Source of the DNA: Proteiniphilum sp. X52
Lineage (GTDB): Bacteria > Bacteroidota > Bacteroidia > Bacteroidales > Dysgonomonadaceae
Direction of reading: 5' to 3'
DNA length: 64,000 nucleotides
Assembly (NCBI RefSeq): GCF_003712195.1
Contig: NZ_RDSD01000015.1
Location: 1-64,000, forward strand
A program made the position numbers and the translations under genes. Below the pieces are notes generated by a model, which worked only from the letters and a program-made list of their open reading frames with translations, made no database searches and was not told the DNA's origin. Of this stretch, positions 10,567 through 21,257 are shown in pieces (position 1 is the stretch's first letter; every line of letters starts with the position of its first letter).

Positions 10567-11559
10567 ATGGATATCGATTTTGTGATTACCTGGGTTGACA
10601 TGGACGACCCAAAATGGAAAGCCGATTTCACCAAATATTCGGGTAAAATAGACAACTCGAAAAATGAGGTTTCGGAAGCCCGTTTCCGTGACTATGGCTT
10701 CCTGAAATATTGGTTCAGGGGGGTAGAGAAATTCGCGCCATGGGTGAGGAAAATACATTTCGTCACTTGTGGCCAGAAACCCGAATGGCTCAATGCCGAT
10801 CACCCCCAATTGGCACTGGTAAATCACAGTGATTACATCCCCGAAAAATACTTACCCGTATTCAACTCCTCGCTCATAGAGATATATCTTCATAAAATCC
10901 CACATCTGGCCGATCGTTTTGTCTACTTCAATGATGATTTTTTCATCATCGACCATATCGGCCAGGATCGTTTTTACACCAATGGGTTGCCCAATGATAT
11001 TGCCGCATTCCGCTACAATTCAGGAATGGGATTATGGTCGAAATGCCTGAAGAACAATATCAGGATTATCAATGAAAGGTTTGACAAACATGAAGTGCTG
11101 CAACGCGATCAGGATAAATGGTTTCATCCCTCTTACGGTAAAAAAGCCAATCTGACGCGATTACTGAGGCCTTATGGAAAGTTTGTGACACTTATCACGC
11201 CGCATAATGCCCAACCCTACCTCAAGTCGACTTTTGAAGAGGTTTGGGAGTACGCCGGAGACAAATTGACCGCGGTATCGACTAACCGCTTTCGCAGTCC
11301 CGAGGATTACACCCAGGAGTTGTTCCGTACCTGGCAGATCTGCCGTTCAAACTTTGAACCTTACAACACCTACAAGAATACAAAGATGTTCCCGCTCGTA
11401 CTCCGGTCGAAGAAGGCGATAAAAGCCATCTACGATCAAAGTTACAAGTTGATCTGCCTCAACGACAACGCCCATATCTGGAACTATACGCAGGTGATGC
11501 AGGAGATTGAAAAAGCTTTTGAATCTGTTTTACCGGAAAAGTCTCAGTTCGAATTATAA
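10567..11559 (+). CDS. Stealth-family sugar-phosphate transferase (first copy)
   Basis: A 330-residue Stealth-type protein, the family of capsule hexose-1-phosphate transferases. The conserved regions appear in order: CR1 as DIDFVITWVDMDDPKW at residues 2-17; CR2 as RFRDYGFLKYWFRGVEKFAPWVRKI followed by GQKPEWLN; CR3 with FNSSLIEIYLHKIPHLADRF and VYFNDDFFI; a shorter CR4-like C-terminal end with CLNDNAHIW. No signal peptide, so it probably acts at the cytoplasmic face. It is the only intact gene of the polysaccharide locus on the plus strand and ends just before two gene remnants. Substrate sugar unknown. Confidence 0.88.
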   Translation: MDIDFVITWVDMDDPKWKADFTKYSGKIDNSKNEVSEARFRDYGFLKYWFRGVEKFAPWVRKIHFVTCGQKPEWLNADHPQLALVNHSDYIPEKYLPVFNSSLIEIYLHKIPHLADRFVYFNDDFFIIDHIGQDRFYTNGLPNDIAAFRYNSGMGLWSKCLKNNIRIINERFDKHEVLQRDQDKWFHPSYGKKANLTRLLRPYGKFVTLITPHNAQPYLKSTFEEVWEYAGDKLTAVSTNRFRSPEDYTQELFRTWQICRSNFEPYNTYKNTKMFPLVLRSKKAIKAIYDQSYKLICLNDNAHIWNYTQVMQEIEKAFESVLPEKSQFEL

Positions 11560-11578
11560 CCATATCACACCCTATGCT

Positions 11579-11626
11579 ATGGAGAAAGAGCTATTAATTT
11601 CTGTTATTATCCCGACACTGAATTAG
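11579..11626 (+). pseudogene. Remnant: first 15 codons of a GT2 glycosyltransferase gene
   Basis: Starting 20 bp after the Stealth gene, an ATG opens MEKELLISVIIPTLN and then meets TAG. This is the typical first beta-strand of a family 2 glycosyltransferase, where the chain would normally continue with Arg or Gly and the nucleotide-binding fold. Only the start survives. The next remnant begins three bases after the stop, so a deletion appears to have removed the rest of the gene. Confidence 0.55.
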
Positions 11627-11628
11627 TT

Positions 11629-11808
11629 ATGATAAAAGGAAAAAATACAGTTTTGTTAATGACAGGTGCAATTGATGTTCAACACAGCCAAGTCCCTTTT
11701 ACCCAGATTACCGATACACAAACACGTCTCGAACAGTACCTCCGTTCGATTGAATATGCCATCAGGAAATACCGTAGCATTCGATGGCGGTTTCAAACTT
11801 TTCCATGA
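11629..11808 (+). pseudogene. Remnant: N-terminal fragment of a polysaccharide-locus glycosyltransferase-like gene
   Basis: An open frame of 59 codons reads MIKGKNTVLLMTGAIDV, then QVPFTQITDTQTRLEQYLRS and IEYAIRKY. I recall this opening from glycosyltransferase-like proteins of Bacteroidales capsule loci, which are several times longer. After about codon 48 the frame runs into the 3' end of the convergent GT4 gene (stop at 11762) and ends in an unrelated tail RSIRWRFQTFP. The gene was therefore truncated by a join at about 11760-11775. Family identity is from memory and should be checked. Confidence 0.55.
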
Positions 11809-13009
11809 CGCGTTTCCATTGATAATTTCTTTCAACGTACGATTTACCGTTTTGCGCGATAAGATGTCTGTCGCTGCCGGATAGAGTGAGTATTCTGTTT
11901 ATCTGTTGGCGGAAATCTTCCCCCTCATAATAAACGAATCCCGCTTGGCTCTGCTCGATATGGGATCTCTGCACCTCACAATGGCCGTTGACCAGAACCG
12001 GTTTTCCCGCCGACATTGCTTCCAGCGTTACCATCGACAGGCTTTCGTTGCGGGAAGGGACGATCACCGCCTGACAGTGCTGCAGATAGGTCAGTTTCTG
12101 GACCTCGTCTATAAATCCGGTAAAAATAATATTATTGCATTCAACCGGATTGTTCATATGATTCTTGCCGATCATTACGAGCTTTATACCGTTATATTGC
12201 GACTTGTTCATCCGGAAGAAATAATCCATCAGTTCCAAGCACCCTTTACCGATATCTATGCGTCCGATATAAACAAAATAAGGGAAAGCGATTGGTGGCG
12301 GCGTATTTTCCTTCCCTTCCGGACTGTCGAAACCGACGCCTGTAATGTCGGATCTGATAGTTCGTGTATCAGGATGGACGGATTCTACCAGTCGTTTTTC
12401 AAACTCCGTGCTATACATGATAAAGCCCGGCAGGGAGAACATTTTTCTGAAACCTGACAGGTAAAGCTTCGGCTCATCATATGCCAATGGAATGAGGATA
12501 CTTTTACCGGATACTTTGTGCAATCCAAAATAATTTGGATAGTACAGACAATTAAAAAAAATAAACGCCTTATACCTGTCATTCTCCCGTTCTATATACG
12601 AAATCATCCCCTTGCATACAGGATTTTCATTCTCTATCCAGCGTTCAAATATCCGGTCGTGATCTTTCCTTCTTCTGTATCGGATGCGCCTGTACGAAAG
12701 GGTAATGATATTGCTTAACGTATATCCTGTATTGTAATACTTGTAATTTCCGCGGATATAACGGCCTACCCATCGAGCTGTTTTCGGCTCTCCTCTCTCA
12801 TATGTAAACCGCAATACACGTATGCCGTCTATTATTTCCTCACCTGCCAGATAATGGTCTTCCCCGGTAGGATAACCTACAGAACAGGAGGTGAGGACAA
12901 CCACTTCATACCTTTCTATCAAACGTTCAGCTAGCAACCGGGCATATAACTGCTCCCCTCCGTTCATCTCCTCACCGTATCGCTGTACAACTATTGCTAT
13001 TTTATCCAT
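11762..13009 (-). CDS. GT4-family glycosyltransferase (paralogue A)
   Basis: A 415-residue GT-B glycosyltransferase. The N-terminal acceptor domain begins MDKIAIVVQRYGEEMNGGEQ with the usual glycine-containing loop. The C-terminal donor domain has FVYIGRIDIGKGCLELMDYF, the loop FTGFIDEVQKLTYLQHC and the family motif PSRNESLSMVTLEAMSAGKPVL, whose two Glu residues (E-x7-E type) contact the nucleotide sugar. No signal peptide or membrane segment. It closely resembles the gene at 13803-15044, so the two are duplicates. It is the last gene of a minus-strand cluster, 5 bp after the GT2 gene. Sugar specificity unknown. Confidence 0.9.
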   Translation of the reverse strand: MDKIAIVVQRYGEEMNGGEQLYARLLAERLIERYEVVVLTSCSVGYPTGEDHYLAGEEIIDGIRVLRFTYERGEPKTARWVGRYIRGNYKYYNTGYTLSNIITLSYRRIRYRRRKDHDRIFERWIENENPVCKGMISYIERENDRYKAFIFFNCLYYPNYFGLHKVSGKSILIPLAYDEPKLYLSGFRKMFSLPGFIMYSTEFEKRLVESVHPDTRTIRSDITGVGFDSPEGKENTPPPIAFPYFVYIGRIDIGKGCLELMDYFFRMNKSQYNGIKLVMIGKNHMNNPVECNNIIFTGFIDEVQKLTYLQHCQAVIVPSRNESLSMVTLEAMSAGKPVLVNGHCEVQRSHIEQSQAGFVYYEGEDFRQQINRILTLSGSDRHLIAQNGKSYVERNYQWKRVMEKFETAIECYGIS

Positions 13010-13014
13010 TCGTT

Positions 13015-13749
13015 TCAGTTGTTATTCGGTCGAATTCTCTTTTTCCGCAATTTATGTTTTATAATCCTGAAATTATACCTGAAACGCACTACGATTCCGA
13101 AGTTCTCCATGACAAGCTTTCTTTTGTCCCGAAGAAATACTTCATCCTCACCATATGACGATACTCCCGTACTATTAAAGTAGGCTATAATATACTCCCG
13201 ATATTCAAACTCATAAGATTTGTCACGATGTAATTGCATATTAAGTGCATAATCTGCCGATACTTTATATTCCGTGTTGTATCTGTATTTTTTGAAAACA
13301 CTCGCAGGATAAATAATTGCCTGATGAAAAATACCTCCTTTAGCCTGTTCGTAACCCGAAACAAAACCTCTTGATTTAATTCCTTCCCTTAAAACATTAG
13401 CGTAATAAACCTTATGCTGATCTTTTAGCTCATTTTCCACAAAGGTAGAGAAGTCGGACAAAAGCCTGTCGTCAGCGCCAATGAAATAGACCCACTGCCC
13501 ACGGATGTATTCCAGCGCCTTGTTCATGGCGTCATATATTCCCTTGTCCGGTTCGCTTTTCCAAAATGCTATCCTGTCTTCATACCTCTTTAGTATCTCC
13601 TGGGTTCCATCGGTACTGTTTCCGTCAATTATGATCAGTTCGACGTGGTTTGCACACCGTTGTTCGATAATACTGTCAATACAGCCGGATATGCAGGAAG
13701 CGACATTGTATGTAACGCAAATAATACTGACAAATGGTTGTTTTTTCAT
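13015..13749 (-). CDS. GT2-family glycosyltransferase
   Basis: A 244-residue family 2 (GT-A fold) glycosyltransferase. The fold begins FVSIICVTYNVASCISGCID; the acidic pocket is IDGNSTDGTQEILKRY; the DxD-like metal site is FIGADDRL; and the region QWVYF precedes it. I chose the ATG at 13749 (MKKQPFVSII) because it starts immediately before the first beta-strand; the upstream in-frame ATG at 13791 would add 14 residues of no evident role. The gene lies between the two GT4 paralogues with gaps of 5 and 53 bp, so all three are likely co-transcribed. Confidence 0.88.
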   Translation of the reverse strand: MKKQPFVSIICVTYNVASCISGCIDSIIEQRCANHVELIIIDGNSTDGTQEILKRYEDRIAFWKSEPDKGIYDAMNKALEYIRGQWVYFIGADDRLLSDFSTFVENELKDQHKVYYANVLREGIKSRGFVSGYEQAKGGIFHQAIIYPASVFKKYRYNTEYKVSADYALNMQLHRDKSYEFEYREYIIAYFNSTGVSSYGEDEVFLRDKRKLVMENFGIVVRFRYNFRIIKHKLRKKRIRPNNN

Positions 13750-13802
13750 ACGGATTTGAACGAGTGGGATATGAGTCCTGTTTAGGCGCAATTATGTAAG
13801 GA

Positions 13803-15044
13803 TTATTCAGCAGCACTCACAAAATCAATTGCGGCATCAAATTTTTTCATGATATTCCCCCATTGAAAATTTTTTTCCACATAAGACTTTCCTTTTTGCG
13901 CAATATCCTGCTTATCCCGGGCAGACAAATTCAATATTTTATTTATCTGCGCAATAAAATCTTCTTTATTATAGTACACAAAACCCGCTTCACTTCGGTC
14001 AATATGGGATTTTAACACATCACAATGACCGTTAGCTAAAACCGGTTTTCCGGCCGACATTGCTTCCAGTGTAACCATCGAGAGGCTTTCATATCGGGAA
14101 GGAATAAGCAGTGCTTCACAATGCTGTAAATAAGATAGCTTTTCTCCTTCATCTATAAATCCGGTAAATATAATATTATCATTCTTCACCTCGGTTTTCA
14201 GATGATTTTTACCAATCATTACAAGTTTTACTCCCGGTTTATTCACTTTGGTAAAGTAATCCAATAATTCTTTGCATCCTTTATGTATATCTATGCGTCC
14301 GATATACACAAAATACTGAGACTTTATCTCACGTTCTTTGTCTTCATCAAAGAGTGGCGGTTCAAAACCGATACCCGCAATATCCGACTTGATTCTCTGC
14401 GTGTCAGGATAAGTTGACTCTACCAAAAGTTTTTCACTTTTGGTATTGTACATAATAAACCTTGGCAAAGAAAACATTTTACGAAAACCTGAAAAATAAA
14501 ATGAAGGCTCAGCATGGGCTGTAGGAATAAGAATACTTTTTTCTGTCACTTTCTGTAAGCCGAAATAAGTAGGATAATAGAGATAGGAGAAAAAAATAAA
14601 TGCTTTATATTTCGCCTTCTCCTGCTCTATATAGGACATCATTTTTCTGCTGACCGGACCATGTCCCTCAATCCAAGAATCAAAGACACCCTCGTGATTT
14701 TTTCTTTTTTTATATCTGAAACGCCTCAGAAAAAGAATAAAAAGATTGCTCAGTGTATATTTCTCATTATAATATTTCAGGTTTCCCCGAAGATAACGAA
14801 ATAATCGATGAGTTCCTTTCAGGTTTTCGTTTTCATTTATAAAACGTAATACCCGTCCCCCATTTATTATCTCTTCACCTGGGGGATAATGGTTATCCCA
14901 TTTATGATAATCCAGCGAACAGGAGGTGAGAACCTCCACTTCATAACGCTCTTTTAAACGTTCAGCCAACAATCGGGCATGTAATTCCGCACCTCCATTA
15001 ACCTCTTTTCCATATCGTTGTACAACTATTGCTATCTTATCCAT
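13803..15044 (-). CDS. GT4-family glycosyltransferase (paralogue B)
   Basis: A 413-residue GT-B glycosyltransferase that closely matches the gene at 11762-13009 over its whole length: MDKIAIVVQRYGKEVNGGAE at the start, FVYIGRIDIHKGCKELLDYF in the donor domain and PSRYESLSMVTLEAMSAGKPVL at the nucleotide-sugar site. The two differ mostly in the acceptor domain, which suggests different acceptors on the same glycan. Its DNA is more AT-rich than paralogue A. Soluble, cytoplasmic or membrane-associated. It follows the second Stealth gene by 40 bp on the same strand. Confidence 0.9.
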   Translation of the reverse strand: MDKIAIVVQRYGKEVNGGAELHARLLAERLKERYEVEVLTSCSLDYHKWDNHYPPGEEIINGGRVLRFINENENLKGTHRLFRYLRGNLKYYNEKYTLSNLFILFLRRFRYKKRKNHEGVFDSWIEGHGPVSRKMMSYIEQEKAKYKAFIFFSYLYYPTYFGLQKVTEKSILIPTAHAEPSFYFSGFRKMFSLPRFIMYNTKSEKLLVESTYPDTQRIKSDIAGIGFEPPLFDEDKEREIKSQYFVYIGRIDIHKGCKELLDYFTKVNKPGVKLVMIGKNHLKTEVKNDNIIFTGFIDEGEKLSYLQHCEALLIPSRYESLSMVTLEAMSAGKPVLANGHCDVLKSHIDRSEAGFVYYNKEDFIAQINKILNLSARDKQDIAQKGKSYVEKNFQWGNIMKKFDAAIDFVSAAE

Positions 15045-15084
15045 ATTTTCCTCGTCCTTTTCTAATTATTTCCACCATGGCTTA

Positions 15085-16041
15085 CTATATCTCAAAGGAT
15101 GATTTCTCCGGAAAGAGACACTTCAGAAAGGGTTCCACTCTTGTCCTGTCTGCGTCAGTAGCATGGTGACTGTCATTGAGACAAAAAAGAGCTGGTCGGT
15201 ACCTGTTAATAAAATACATATAATCCGGTTTATGTACTCGTATTCTGCACGATTCGCTTCTGCCTACGTAACGTAGTTTACCCCGCCCTACAGCCAAGGC
15301 ATAGTAAAGGTAAATGATCCGCTGAATGTCATCCTCACTTCTGATATGATGGGTTATGGTGGAATATATCTCATCCCGGAATAGATCTTCACAGACAAGT
15401 TGATAATCTGATTTAAGATAGGAATCGATATTATGATGAGGGGTTCCGGAATAGTATTTCCCAAATTTCTCCTCTATGAGTGAGGCTGCCCGATCGATGG
15501 TTTTCCGGTAGATATTGGTATGTATTTTGAATGTCTTTTTAAATTTGTTTATCCATTTACCCCAAAAAGCACGTTGTAATCTCGCCACAGGTAATCCCTC
15601 TTTTGTGAAAAAGAAACCTGGGGCAACTTCAGCGTTAAAAAACATATCGTCATTTGCATATAAAAAGTGTTCAGATAACTCCGGAATCTTATACAGAAAA
15701 TGTTCGATTATCACCGAATTATAACAAGGTAATGCCTGGGGAGGAACAAGTTCCCGTATATCTACAATTCTAATTTTTTTGTCCTGCCAATTCAGCCAAT
15801 CTGGTTTTTGGCCATCCGTGACAATAAAAATCCGACGAATCCATGGAGCATATTTTTCTGCCGAACGTAACGAATATTTCAACTCATCGTTGTTTGCGCT
15901 TCGCGCTTTAGTCGTAGCTTCAGAATTCAGGTCAACATTTCTTCCTAAAAACAGATTTTTCCTGGCGACCCATTCCGCGTCGCTTCCATCAACCCACAGA
16001 TAAACCAAGTCTATATCAAATCGTTCTGTAAATTTCCTCAT
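15085..16041 (-). CDS. Stealth-family sugar-phosphate transferase (second copy)
   Basis: A 318-residue Stealth protein with clearer signatures than the first copy: CR1 FDIDLVYLWVDGSDAEW, a CR2 with RSANNDELKYSLRSAEKYAPWIRRI and VTDGQKPDWLN, a CR3 with YNSVIIEHFLYKIPELSEHF and YANDDMFF, and a CR4-like CLNDSHHATDADR. I place the start at the ATG at 16041 (MRKFTERFDIDL). An upstream ATG at 16092 is in frame but would overlap the preceding GT4 gene by 77 bp instead of 26 bp. The short overlap suggests translational coupling with that gene. Confidence 0.87.
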   Translation of the reverse strand: MRKFTERFDIDLVYLWVDGSDAEWVARKNLFLGRNVDLNSEATTKARSANNDELKYSLRSAEKYAPWIRRIFIVTDGQKPDWLNWQDKKIRIVDIRELVPPQALPCYNSVIIEHFLYKIPELSEHFLYANDDMFFNAEVAPGFFFTKEGLPVARLQRAFWGKWINKFKKTFKIHTNIYRKTIDRAASLIEEKFGKYYSGTPHHNIDSYLKSDYQLVCEDLFRDEIYSTITHHIRSEDDIQRIIYLYYALAVGRGKLRYVGRSESCRIRVHKPDYMYFINRYRPALFCLNDSHHATDADRTRVEPFLKCLFPEKSSFEI

Positions 16042-17086
16042 AATCGTGAAAATGTTGATCTCCGGAAAACTTTTCAGCATACGATTTTTCAACTTCTGCC
16101 AGTCCGGGGGTTTTATAAAAATCGTTCAAACCTCTATCTATAACCTGTTTCATAGGCTCTGGCTCAAAATTATCCCAAAAATAGGCATAAATGGAACCTA
16201 TTTCCTTTAAACTGGTCTGCTGAGATGAGAAAACAGGTTTTCCAAACTGCATGGCCTCAATGACGGGTATCCCAAATCCCTCCAATAGGGAGGGAAAAAG
16301 AAACGCCTCACAATTCCGATACATCCATATCTTTTCCTCATACGATATAGCCTCATGTAATGTTACATTGGAAATATTCTCCTCTCTTATGCGTCTTTTT
16401 ATATTCAAGGCGTAGGTGTTATGTTTTTTATCAGCCCCACTACCTATGATATAAAGGTGTTTTTCTGGAATCAGTTTCATCAGATCAAGCAAGACATGAA
16501 AATTTTTTTTTCGCTTGATAATTCCCAATGTAAAAAAGAACGGTTGAATTACGTCGAAGGCAGGTCTTGACGCCATCCTTTCATCCAACAATTGCACTTT
16601 ATTATAGATTACTTTGCATTCTTTATCATGCAGCTGAAGTTCCCGCTCCACCTCTCTCTTCGTAAACTCGGAAATACAGACAATCTCATCCGCCCGATCT
16701 ATTTTTTTTTGAAGTCTTCGGTGTCTCCTGATCTTGGAATTACCGGTTCTCTCATAGAGATAATTCAAATCGTGTATAGTCAGAATCAGTTTAGTGCTGG
16801 AATGGAATGGCCCAAAACGACTCAACTGATGAATGGAATGCCAGATATCAAATTTTGGGAAAGTATAAGGGCAATATTTTCTGAACCAGTTTGTGGAAGA
16901 AATATATTTCATTTTATTGCCGAAAGCACCTATATATCGCTTAGGAACCAGCAAGGTAAGCTCATACAAGGATGTATGGGCATGATAGTTATCCTTAAAA
17001 TAATAACCATAGCTTAATGCAATTTGCCCTAGCCCAGAATAAAGGTTTTTAAGTGAAGAAAGATCAACCAAGAGTCTTTTTTTCAT
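16016..17086 (-). CDS. GT4-family glycosyltransferase
   Basis: A 356-residue GT-B glycosyltransferase of family 4, not closely similar to the two duplicates downstream. The N-terminus carries LVDLSSLKNLYSGLGQIALS, where the glycine turn meets the donor. Mid-protein TIHDLNYLY and VCISEFTKREVERELQ are the GT4 interdomain features. The donor domain has FFTLGIIKRKKNFHVLLDLM and FPSLLEGFGIPVIEAMQFGKPVF. It is the first gene of the minus-strand cluster, so its promoter should lie in the gene-free stretch 17087-18014. Confidence 0.9.
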   Translation of the reverse strand: MKKRLLVDLSSLKNLYSGLGQIALSYGYYFKDNYHAHTSLYELTLLVPKRYIGAFGNKMKYISSTNWFRKYCPYTFPKFDIWHSIHQLSRFGPFHSSTKLILTIHDLNYLYERTGNSKIRRHRRLQKKIDRADEIVCISEFTKREVERELQLHDKECKVIYNKVQLLDERMASRPAFDVIQPFFFTLGIIKRKKNFHVLLDLMKLIPEKHLYIIGSGADKKHNTYALNIKRRIREENISNVTLHEAISYEEKIWMYRNCEAFLFPSLLEGFGIPVIEAMQFGKPVFSSQQTSLKEIGSIYAYFWDNFEPEPMKQVIDRGLNDFYKTPGLAEVEKSYAEKFSGDQHFHDYEEIYRTI

Positions 17087-18014: not shown

Positions 18015-20270
18015 ATGTTAAAAGAATCACTACACAACATCTTAATCCGCGACATGTGTCAAACCGGGCAGTTATCCACCCGGGCGGCCAATTGTTGTTC
18101 AATGGCAGGTTTAATCACTCTTTACGATGTAGTTTCTTATTTCGAAATGGGTCGCTCTTTTTTGCTGCTAAAAAATTCCGGCCGCAAGACATCGGGTGAG
18201 TTGGAAATGTTATGCAAAGAAACGCTTTCGCGGCTCGAGGAACCAAAAGAAGAAACCCCGGAAATTGACAGAGAAACAGAAGTGAAGGATTTGCTCGAGA
18301 ATGATTTTTACCGCTCCATCAATGAAAGACTTATTTCACCCACTGAATTGTTAGATTATTTGTCTCCTTTACAAAAAAAAATATTGGAAAAGGAATATGA
18401 TAAACTTGTCTCATCTTGTTCTGACCGCACCGCCAGATGGTTAAGAATGGTCGATTTTAACGATTTTGTAAATAATTATCTCATCGAAGAAAACAACGCC
18501 CTCATGAAAATCAGGAATTTAGGGAAGAAAGCGTTCCCGGAGCTGGTGGGTTTTAAAGAGACGTTCAAAAAAGTATTATTCCGCATCACACATTCACCGG
18601 AGGAAGATTTTCCGAGGGAGAAGCTGATATTGGAAAAAGGCAAATGGTTTGAGGAAGATTTTGTATATGATTACTATGTGCGACAGGGACACGTCCCCAT
18701 GTTTTGGATACTTGAAAAGGAGCTCAGGTCGGACCACAGCAGGAAAATGGATATTCTCCTCAATACATATCCGATATTTGAAGGATATCGATTCCTGACG
18801 TATAAGGAATTACGAGAAAAATACAACCTGTCTGCCCAACGGATCTATCAAATCAAGAATAAAACATTCAAGCATTTCTTTTCAGCAGAAAATCCCCTTT
18901 TGACAAACAGGAAGGAGGAATGGGCCTTTTATAAAAACTTAATCGGTGATGAAGAGGTCTTATGGCAAGACGATGATCGCATCTCCACCCTCATAGAACA
19001 AGAGAATATTCACTTTACCCGAGGGTTTGTCTTACAGGTGCTTTCCCTACTTACCGATACCACCCATATGCTACTGGGCGGCTTAGACTCCCCGCCGGGA
19101 AAGAATATAATGAGAAAAAACAGTGTGTTGATTCCAATTGACCCGGCTTTCGCTTTCAATTTTAATAGATTCATCTCGGATGTCAGATATTTAATTTCCA
19201 TCAATCAGGCAAGAATTCTCTCAGACTTCGAATCTTATATATTGCGCTCCCCGGGATGGCTAAAATATAAGGAGGAAATACTGGAAGGTGTGATAAAGGT
19301 CGCGTCCGAAATCCTTGAGCATGAGTTCGGCCTTGCGACCGTCTCGGGAAAAGTCATCACCCCACCCCCTCCTGTTCTTCCCAAACATCCTTCCGATGTG
19401 ATATATGAAATATTGAAACAGCAAGGGACACCCATGCACATAGATGATCTATTCACAGAATTCAAAAAGATACTCCCGGGACATAAGTATACCTCCTCCA
19501 AACAACTTCGGCCTCTTTTATACCAACATGATCTAATAACCCACAAAGGCCGAAAAAGCATGTATATGCTAAAAGAATGGAAACATATCAAGTCGGGCAC
19601 CATCAGGGAAACTATCATTGAATTTTTAAACGGGCATGATCGTCCGCGTGCGGTCAGGGAAATAACAAATCACGTTTTGCAATATTTTCCCGAGACAAAT
19701 ATCAACAGCATCCGCACCTCGATGATCAAAGACTCAAAGAAACGTTTCAAGCAATATAAGAACGGGTGTTTCGGTTTAAGCGATAAGACCTATCCGGACA
19801 AGACGGGCGACCCGGCGACGCTTGGTATTTCCAACAACCCATTTGACGAGAGGCTGTCTGACTTGGAAAAATTCATCTCACAGCACTGGCATTTCCCTTT
19901 TTCCGTTTCAACCGACCAGAATGAGATGTCGTTGTATCGGTGGTGGAGGTTACAATGCGTTCATTTTGACAAACTGACACAAGGGCAAAAAACTGAGGTA
20001 GAGAGGATAAAAAATCAATACGCGGGTCTTGACACGGAAAAAAAGGTCTATGAGTGGAACAACCGGTACAATATCCTCATTGGCTTTCTTCTTACTAATC
20101 AACGCATGCCGTCCCCGGATAGCCGGGGGCTGGAAAAATTACTGCACGAATGGTACCTCAGGGCAACAAGCGATTTCAACAGGAAGAACGGTTTAAGCGA
20201 TGAACAAAGAAGAAAATACATGGACATTGAAAAGATGGCGAAAATAGAATATTCGTCCCCCTCTTCATAA
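18015..20270 (+). CDS. Large multi-HTH protein with RNAP alpha-CTD-like and sigma-4-like modules
   Basis: A 751-residue soluble protein with no signal peptide. By eye it reads as a chain of nucleic-acid-binding modules. Residues 17-70 resemble the RNA polymerase alpha C-terminal domain (LSTRAANCC, then LKNSGRKTSGELE). Residues about 155-180 repeat the helix-hairpin-helix motif (ALMKIRNLGKKAFPEL). Residues 258-290 look like a sigma region 4 helix-turn-helix (TYKELREKYNLSAQRIYQIK). After a proline linker (450-455) come two winged-helix, HARE-HTH-like units (459-521 and 528-590). The C-terminus has two units resembling helicase-associated domains (LEKFISQHWHFPF ... LYRWWRLQC, and EWNNRYNILIGFLLTNQRMP). 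A role in transcription or DNA transactions is inferred. It converges on an S1-domain gene, with stops 6 bp apart. Confidence 0.75.
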   Translation: MLKESLHNILIRDMCQTGQLSTRAANCCSMAGLITLYDVVSYFEMGRSFLLLKNSGRKTSGELEMLCKETLSRLEEPKEETPEIDRETEVKDLLENDFYRSINERLISPTELLDYLSPLQKKILEKEYDKLVSSCSDRTARWLRMVDFNDFVNNYLIEENNALMKIRNLGKKAFPELVGFKETFKKVLFRITHSPEEDFPREKLILEKGKWFEEDFVYDYYVRQGHVPMFWILEKELRSDHSRKMDILLNTYPIFEGYRFLTYKELREKYNLSAQRIYQIKNKTFKHFFSAENPLLTNRKEEWAFYKNLIGDEEVLWQDDDRISTLIEQENIHFTRGFVLQVLSLLTDTTHMLLGGLDSPPGKNIMRKNSVLIPIDPAFAFNFNRFISDVRYLISINQARILSDFESYILRSPGWLKYKEEILEGVIKVASEILEHEFGLATVSGKVITPPPPVLPKHPSDVIYEILKQQGTPMHIDDLFTEFKKILPGHKYTSSKQLRPLLYQHDLITHKGRKSMYMLKEWKHIKSGTIRETIIEFLNGHDRPRAVREITNHVLQYFPETNINSIRTSMIKDSKKRFKQYKNGCFGLSDKTYPDKTGDPATLGISNNPFDERLSDLEKFISQHWHFPFSVSTDQNEMSLYRWWRLQCVHFDKLTQGQKTEVERIKNQYAGLDTEKKVYEWNNRYNILIGFLLTNQRMPSPDSRGLEKLLHEWYLRATSDFNRKNGLSDEQRRKYMDIEKMAKIEYSSPSS

Positions 20271-20276
20271 ATTGTG

Positions 20277-21257
20277 TCATTTATCCCGGGAAGCATCTAT
20301 TTTTTCTTTGATATCCTCCAGAATTATTATGGAACGTTCGTCGAGCATCTCCGCCATGGGATATCTCCGGACAGGAACCTTCTCCGGCAAATTCATATTC
20401 ACCAGCCATTTCAGCACCAGGGTGCACTTTCTGTCGTCACACCCCACCACCACACAGGGAATGGAGTCGCTGTCCGATAAAGCATTTTTGGCCCGACGGA
20501 CCGCTTTGCGATGGGAGGGATACATTTCCTTGTTGATGAGAAGCATGCCTTTATACTTGTCCAGGACAAGGAACTCCTGTTTCTGAGTCTCCTCATTCCT
20601 GGCCACCTTCACCCATGTGGTTTGCCCGACCATTTTTTGCGGAATTCCCAGGGCCCAGTCCACATCAGTCTCATTTTGGGAGAGCTCTATGTGCCCGTCC
20701 TCACTCTCTCCCAGATAGATCACCTGCACGGTAGTGCCGCCCTCCATATCGTCTAAAGAGACCGAACCCTCCAGTTTGGTTTTGTGCAGCAAACCCACGA
20801 TAGATCCGTGTCTCCAATTGAAATGGTAACCGATATCTATGAACAGCCCATATTCCCTTTTATGGATGATCAAGCCCTTGTAAAGCCCCCCTATGGCCAG
20901 TTCCGCCTGTTTGAATTGTGGCACGTCGCCGTCAAGGATAATGGAAAACCGCTCCCTGACGATGCGGTGGATCTTACAATAGAACTTTTTCCCGATCAGG
21001 CTGGGGGCAACATGGAGCCACGCACTCCTGTCAAAATACCTCCATGGCATATGATTGAAAGAAATATACGCATATAATCCTTTTACCTTGGCTAAAAATC
21101 CATATATCTTCACATCCACAACCTTGAACGGAAGGGTATCCGAATGTTGCCTGTGCATTTCAAGTTCATGGAGACGCTCCGATTTCCAATCTTTCTTATT
21201 GCTCTTACCGGGAATCTTTAATTTGTTTTTTATTTCATTGGTGATCGTCCGAAGCAT
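20277..21257 (-). CDS. S1-domain RNA-binding protein
   Basis: A 326-residue protein with a basic N-terminus (KNKLKIPGKSNKKDWKSER) and S1/OB-fold features. A first, degenerate unit spans about residues 42-90 (PFKVVDVKIYGFLAKVKG). A clearer S1 unit spans about 118-185: IGGLYKGLIIHKREYGLFID, GSIVGLLHKTKL, then VQVIYLGESEDGHIELSQNE. The C-terminal third has a further beta-rich part (TTWVKVARNEETQKQEFLVL) of unknown type. No membrane segment. The gene converges on the multi-HTH gene at 18015. Binding to RNA is expected of S1 folds; the target is unknown. Confidence 0.8.
   Translation of the reverse strand: MLRTITNEIKNKLKIPGKSNKKDWKSERLHELEMHRQHSDTLPFKVVDVKIYGFLAKVKGLYAYISFNHMPWRYFDRSAWLHVAPSLIGKKFYCKIHRIVRERFSIILDGDVPQFKQAELAIGGLYKGLIIHKREYGLFIDIGYHFNWRHGSIVGLLHKTKLEGSVSLDDMEGGTTVQVIYLGESEDGHIELSQNETDVDWALGIPQKMVGQTTWVKVARNEETQKQEFLVLDKYKGMLLINKEMYPSHRKAVRRAKNALSDSDSIPCVVVGCDDRKCTLVLKWLVNMNLPEKVPVRRYPMAEMLDERSIIILEDIKEKIDASRDK

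Follow-up and report, generated by a model that had tools for sequence, protein, structure and literature searches.

The window analyzed is a stretch of 64,000 nucleotides from Proteiniphilum sp. X52. The gene under study runs on its plus strand from an ATG at position 18015 to a stop codon at position 20270 and encodes, without internal stops, a protein of 751 amino acids, termed P0001 in the following. It is faced by a convergent gene for an S1-like protein and preceded by a conserved noncoding segment (Table 1). No comparable open reading frame (ORF) was present on the minus strand of the same interval, and Rfam gave no match within the window. The MLKESL start is common to all Proteiniphilum homologs of P0001, and its closest relatives within the genus include the P. 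acetatigenes protein L011 (68% identity). A profile of relatives from which every Proteiniphilum sequence had been left out matched P0001 in a single continuous match of 329.6 bits (E value of 7.9e-100), and the best score of the controls, namely, 300 shuffled sequences and reversed family members, was 5.2 bits. With the relative L041 as the query, residues 21 to 753 aligned to P0001 (E value of 2.9e-36). The dN/dS ratio of P0001 was about 0.2 to 0.3 overall and about 0.2 to 0.4 in all blocks, indicating purifying selection on the protein.

Table 1. Coordinates of the features in the window and of the three-gene operons headed by long-form relatives
Feature	Coordinates	Strand	Evidence
Composite protein gene (alpha-CTD x2, sigma region 4-like, two winged helices, HA x2)	18015..20270	+	Leave-out profile, dN/dS
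alpha-CTD-like module 1 (residues 1-75)	18015..18239	+	Pfam, AlphaFold, VIA-align, residue table
alpha-CTD-like module 2 (residues about 105-195; second HhH RNLGKKAFPEL)	18327..18599	+	L041 copy, AlphaFold
Sigma-70 region 4-like HTH (residues about 240-290; SAQRIYQI, diverged recognition residues)	18732..18884	+	Pfam, family profile
HARE-type winged helix 1 (residues 453-524), RNAP delta N-terminal-like fold	19371..19586	+	VIA-align, relatives
Second winged-helix module (residues about 528-595)	19596..19799	+	Family alignment, model
HA-like repeat 1 (residues about 607-668)	19833..20018	+	Relatives, leave-out HA profile
HA-like repeat 2 (residues about 680-745)	20052..20249	+	Leave-out HA profile; aligns with second HA repeat of L041/L043/L044
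Convergent partner, 326-amino-acid S1-like protein	20277..21257	-	Homologs; co-occurrence
Recombined segment	19260..19919	+	DNA identity to P. acetatigenes copy of 82-98% in 60-base blocks (92-98% in most)
Conserved upstream noncoding segment	17729..17844	+	85% identical in P. acetatigenes
Three-gene operon	L041:3791-10891		
Three-gene operon	L043:1-5683		
Three-gene operon	L185:8750-14798		
Three-gene operon	L186:8484-14586		
Three-gene operon	L189:8688-14522		

The original prediction had described P0001 as a chain of two alpha-CTD-like helix-hairpin-helix (HhH) copies, a sigma region 4-like helix-turn-helix (HTH), HARE-type winged helices and helicase-associated (HA)-like repeats. Profile searches found similarity to the alpha-CTD, sigma region 4, HARE and HA folds, and this architecture is supported, mostly via the relatives. 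For P0001 on its own, every Pfam match was under the curated cut-off, and the NCBIfam matches were to RpoA (4e-4) and to RNA polymerase (RNAP) delta (1.6e-3). An AlphaFold model of the full-length protein, made from four input sequences, was poor overall (mean pLDDT of 53), which limits its use to single modules: residues 1 to 75 were confident, and residues of about 86 to 200 and 455 to 560 were usable. A model of residues 525 to 751 alone (mean pLDDT of 44) was set aside. As also predicted, no enzymatic domain was found in P0001 in Pfam, NCBIfam, PADLOC or PHROGs.

Comparison of the model with solved structures matched two of these modules to alpha-CTD and RNAP delta, respectively. In the first module, residues 19 to 63 matched RNA_pol_A_CTD (PF03118) with an E value of 9.7e-5 and 22.5 bits (cut-off of 23.8), and the matches of the relatives reached 30.8 to 38.1 bits, over the cut-off, with a best E value of 1.6e-10. 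The module was modeled with a pLDDT of about 85 to 90, and VIA-align superimposed residues 3 to 72 on the Bacillus subtilis alpha-CTD 1z3e_B (Z of 9.1, rmsd of 1.9, 27% identity) and on several further alpha-CTDs (Z of 7.3 to 8). In the second copy of P0001 (pLDDT of about 75 to 80), the second HhH alone was recognized, as a fragment by itself (E value of 0.068), and the homologous copy of L041 (residues 127 to 176) is the strongest stretch of the RNA_pol_A_CTD match of that protein (E value of 1.2e-9). This copy and the second winged helix are the less well supported modules of P0001. As compared to RNAP alpha, P0001 lacks the N-terminal (assembly) domain, is fused to sigma region 4 and winged helices, and contains a second, more diverged alpha-CTD copy.

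The Sigma70_r4 match of P0001 alone had an E value of 0.023. However, PF04545 was matched by 20 of the 26 family members and by all 16 core members (best E value of 7e-10), and a profile of the 26 members (A3) matched a solved sigma region 4 (5.2e-9) and RpoA (3.5e-6) in the PDB. In the relatives, the predicted region 4 assignment is solid. No match to sigma regions 2 or 3 was found for P0001 or the family profiles in Pfam, NCBIfam or the PDB; the family differs from sigma-70 by the lack of regions 1 to 3.

For the first winged helix, the HARE-HTH (PF05066) match of P0001 alone had an E value of 0.016 and 16.1 bits (cut-off of 25.9), the best E value among family members was 4.2e-7, and the phage relative L074 reached 32.5 bits. 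Residues 451 to 525 matched delta structures with Z scores of 9.2 (9a6y_A, over residues 452 to 523), 8.7 (2m4k) and 7.6, and 8x6g_E, probably delta too, with a Z score of 8.3. In the model, the winged-helix fold class of residues 452 to 525 is firm; the assignment to delta, which is among the best fold matches, is softer because other winged helices score within 1 Z. As opposed to delta, this winged helix stands in tandem with a second one and is not followed by an acidic delta tail. HARE is otherwise known in fusions to nucleases and chromatin proteins. The second winged helix, proposed with moderate confidence, corresponds to a conserved block in the family alignment (TIKELVxEYL..HIxDI..Y..N) and was modeled as H-H-H-E-E with modest confidence. 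The HA match of P0001 alone was poor (E value of 0.3, 11.8 bits, cut-off of 28.4). In relatives, E values of 1.7e-7 and 1.5e-10 were obtained, with two stretches each, and L185 scored 41.6 bits. A leave-out profile of the HA region of the relatives gave 57.4 bits for P0001 versus 8.9 bits for the best shuffle, and by this sequence comparison the predicted HA repeats are significant through the relatives.

We then inspected the residues expected to contact DNA. In alpha-CTD, R265, N268, C269, G296, K298, S299 and E302 (Escherichia coli numbering) have DNA-contact roles. The first copy of P0001 keeps the equivalents of R265, N268, C269, G296, K298 and E302 and has a threonine in place of S299. 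Among the 16 core members, R265, G296 and K298 are present in all, N268 in 15 and E302 in 14. The motif LSVRALNC of L011 and L070 is that of the RpoA of the host itself, and P0001 has LSTRAANC. The first alpha-CTD copy of P0001 is thus solidly backed by relatives, fold and contact residues. In sigma70, TRERxRQ comprises the residues that read -35 DNA. This motif, and with it the -35 contact positions, is invariant in the core form, whereas the clade of P0001 has SAQRIYQ (P0001), SSQRINQ (L011) and STQRVNQ (L070) instead of TRERVRQ, which corresponds to a change of three of the five -35-contact residues in P0001. A paralog encoded in the P. acetatigenes genome, L071, retains SRERVRQ. This protein ends at the linker ahead of the winged helices, and the N-terminal half hence occurs as a separate protein. 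The original proposal that P0001 touches both UP-element-like and -35-like DNA agrees, for the former, with the contacts kept in the first alpha-CTD copy, whereas the changed -35 residues of the window clade speak against the latter.

Considering the modules, the contact residues and the absence of enzymes, which point to the binding of extended promoter-type DNA, we propose with moderate confidence that P0001 is a nonenzymatic, multimodule, putative DNA-binding accessory transcription regulator that targets promoter-type DNA and works at RNAP or in its vicinity. The alpha-CTD modules, whose contact residues are kept, would bind AT-rich upstream DNA. The HTH may ancestrally have read -35-like DNA and, in the window clade, may have another target or bind protein only. 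The winged helices and HA repeats would supply extra contacts, and a single chain could in this manner grip an extended promoter region, raising or lowering polymerase recruitment. As it has neither sigma region 2 nor sigma region 3, P0001 should not be able to open promoters itself. For the same reason, and in view of the substituted recognition residues of the window protein, it is extremely unlikely that P0001 is a true, degenerate sigma factor that directs initiation, even though there is region 4 homology and the -35 contacts are invariant in the core form. The regulator reading is weakened by the scores of P0001 below the Pfam cut-offs, by the substituted sigma region 4 recognition residues, by the patchy occurrence of the gene in its genus, by the low overall quality of the structural model and by the fact that the same module types serve defense proteins that do not regulate transcription.

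Sequence searches gave a match in 34 of the 295 genomes of the order, and a core-form profile matched 32 genomes at an E value of 1e-12 or better. A further profile, A4, was discarded as a measure of phylum-wide spread: it matched 391 of 395 genomes, nearly all through region 4 of ordinary sigma factors, and for this reason solely long matches at an E value of 1e-12 or better were counted. The core form has about 490 amino acids and contains one alpha-CTD, a sigma region 4 with the 4.1 and 4.2 arrangement and TRERxRQ, and two winged helices. In 13 genomes from 8 families, its gene lies directly 3' of a SpoU-type methyltransferase gene, behind rpsF-rpsR-rplI. The ribosomal proteins and SpoU of this operon were confirmed by Pfam, and convergent apbE and nqr genes, read by eye, usually follow. 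This operon slot, occupied within one Bacteroidales lineage, is a stable core-genome position, and the core wing of the family probably regulates ribosomal-protein-linked promoters. Together with the polymerase-associated origin of three modules, this position suggests that transcription control is the older role. The long forms, of about 590 to 810 amino acids, have two alpha-CTDs and variable C-termini, which are HA, a further winged-helix-like piece or a possible HNH. The core and long wings did not split cleanly in the tree, in which deep branches were long and weakly supported. In one distant relative (L096; L191:8129-10009, genome G410), the C-terminus is HNH nuclease-like (CAICGRKFP...AHIKRRA), with a Pfam HNH_2 E value of just 0.037.

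Within Proteiniphilum, the composite gene clade (support of 100) was detected in 4 of 39 genomes, and given this patchy distribution the protein is not a required factor in the genus. The ORF is intact in G000, G014 and G021. In G007 (L070:6535-8759), the homolog consists of two overlapping ORFs of 463 and 278 amino acids, and the split, which may be a frame break or reflect a genuine two-protein form, falls exactly at the linker between the sigma region 4 half and the winged-helix-HA half. In G007, G014 and G021, the module is flanked by DUF4230 and DUF6377 genes or by equivalents of these. This site is empty in the window genome, where the module lies between a glycosyltransferase cluster and pgpH and has carried along 53 bp of the DUF4230 site; the left 53 bp of the conserved upstream segment are also left at the empty site. 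No convincing terminal repeats of the window module were found. The glycosyltransferase cluster (window positions 10567 to 17086) includes two Stealth-domain proteins (10567-11559 and 15085-16092), and its content differs from that of the locus in the congeners.

The window copy is also mosaic. Most of the gene upstream of the recombined segment has a sliding identity of about 57 to 78% to the P. acetatigenes copy, and dS with respect to L011 was 0.15 for residues 416 to 525, 0.35 for residues 526 to 600, and 0.9 to 1.7 upstream. With 85% identity, the upstream noncoding segment surpasses most of the neighboring coding sequence in conservation. In the P. acetatigenes/G014 copy and in the window, it contains TATCTTTG, which agrees with the Bacteroidetes -7 consensus. 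The split homolog in G007, the deletion of the S1-like gene in P. acetatigenes, the changed sigma region 4 contact residues and the empty other locus in the window genome would all be compatible with the window copy being a degenerating, now functionless relic of a mobile module. Nevertheless, we consider such decay unlikely, since the ORF is full-length and intact in three genomes, dN/dS is of the above magnitude in all blocks, the sigma region 4 segment has a dN of 0.22 versus a dS of 0.91, and the upstream segment outconserves most of the coding sequence.

The S1-like gene is present in 2 of the 39 Proteiniphilum genomes (G000 and G007), solely in carriers of the composite gene, with a remnant in G014 and G021; the two genes constitute an accessory two-gene module in the window clade. 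In P. acetatigenes, where the S1 gene is deleted, the composite ORF enters an antisense remnant of its start (L011:10239-10289), through which the protein is 11 residues longer. The window S1-like protein had no Pfam match, and its name rests on homologs, of which L140 matches Pfam S1 with an E value of 2.4e-12. Such homologs are scattered through other families of the order. A role of the S1-like gene as the general partner of the family was rejected, as its other homologs do not adjoin family genes. In G224 (L143:223-3876), an S1-like homolog of the window partner is found downstream of rpsF-rpsR-rplI-spoU, the core gene is absent there, and the homolog fills the slot held elsewhere by the core family gene. 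This homolog, the S1-like partner in the window and the position of the core gene would agree with P0001 working with RNA or translation instead of promoters, as an RNAP-ribosome or rRNA-linked factor. We consider this very unlikely, because every module recognized in P0001 is of a DNA-binding type and no RNA-binding domain was found in it.

The survey of the neighborhoods of homologs revealed a second setting in addition to the S6-S18-L9-spoU operon that carries the core form. In five families, some belonging to other orders or classes, a long form (five in all) is encoded by the first gene of a shared three-gene operon (Table 1), which continues with a DndD/PbeC-like ABC ATPase (PADLOC E value of about 1e-92) and a DndE-HerA/FtsK protein (for which the two examples checked matched Pfam DndE with E values of 5e-12 and 3e-9). 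This operon is likely an undescribed defense-like system. Pairs of DndD-like and DndE-HerA proteins have been described (clade-3 HerA; PMC10853773), and the part of that text that was searched does not mention a composite first gene. Among other relatives, L187 is part of a type I restriction-modification locus that also encodes HsdR, HsdS and a YgjP-like peptidase. In G328 (L044:2713-10103), an apparent operon encodes a HerA-like protein, an HSP90-type ATPase, a radical-SAM-like protein and an 806-amino-acid family member, downstream of which are integrase-, MobC- and relaxase-like genes, that is, a mobilizable-element setting; this operon is possibly a further conflict cassette. PADLOC matches of relatives to MzaA spanned the sigma region 4 stretch only and were not counted.

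These settings speak for a rival reading that we regard as a serious, though less probable, possibility: P0001 would be the DNA-recognition subunit of a defense-like conflict system that flags invading or modified DNA for partner ATPases or nucleases. Transcription would then not be the target, and the partner in the window clade would be the S1-like protein. In addition to the five operons and the loci of L187 and L044, the weak HNH match of the distant relative, the proposal (PMC10853773) that HARE-HTH discriminates modified DNA, and the accessory, mosaic nature of the window gene and its occurrence at two sites are in its favor. However, a DndE-HerA protein is absent from the window genome and from the three congeners with the composite gene, no defense gene was recognized in the flanks examined around the window gene, P0001 had no PADLOC match at an E value of up to 1, and the stable place of the core wing in a ribosomal operon is hard to square with ancestral defense. 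Under the accessory regulator reading that we prefer, conflict operons would have taken up the long wing on several occasions, as suggested by the repeated DndD/DndE-HerA operons and the patchy, mobile and mosaic window copy. A more speculative reading, which we hold to be rather doubtful, combines both aspects. The family would be an undescribed RNAP-mimic class that recognizes promoter DNA through the alpha-CTD, sigma region 4 and delta-type modules of a single chain, with the core form as a core transcription factor in one Bacteroidales lineage, the long form as a promoter-sensing conflict subunit and the window gene, together with its S1-like partner, as a third, mobile deployment; the three-gene system might then select actively transcribed invader DNA.

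Each of the modules is known; as far as our searches reach, their order on one chain and both genomic settings are undescribed. The literature searched, a scope outside of which lay the 2012 HARE-HTH paper (PMC3272235), contained no description of the composite architecture or of the defense link. The original suggestion of an undescribed transcription or phage-control factor is in line with this, with the place of the core form in a ribosomal-protein operon and with the defense-like settings of several long relatives; the window gene itself adjoins neither kind of operon. If RNAP is bound, P0001 would add a new accessory factor to the distinctive transcription machinery of its phylum. If the defense link is true, the long forms would belong to a conflict system that uses promoters, and hence transcription, as a recognition signal. 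A phage origin of the window gene was discarded: none of the 50,697 phage records matched, and there was a single weak match to a plasmid. Viral contigs yielded relatives with sigma region 4 and HARE alone, namely, the IMG/VR proteins L074 and L075 (306 and 466 amino acids), in which Sigma70_r4 (1.3e-10 and 2.8e-9) is followed by HARE/winged helices and which, unlike P0001, lack alpha-CTD and HA. At L075:3060-5294, a nucleotidyltransferase-like gene lies just upstream of the gene with sigma region 4 and winged helices and, as read by eye, is apparently interrupted by an intein.
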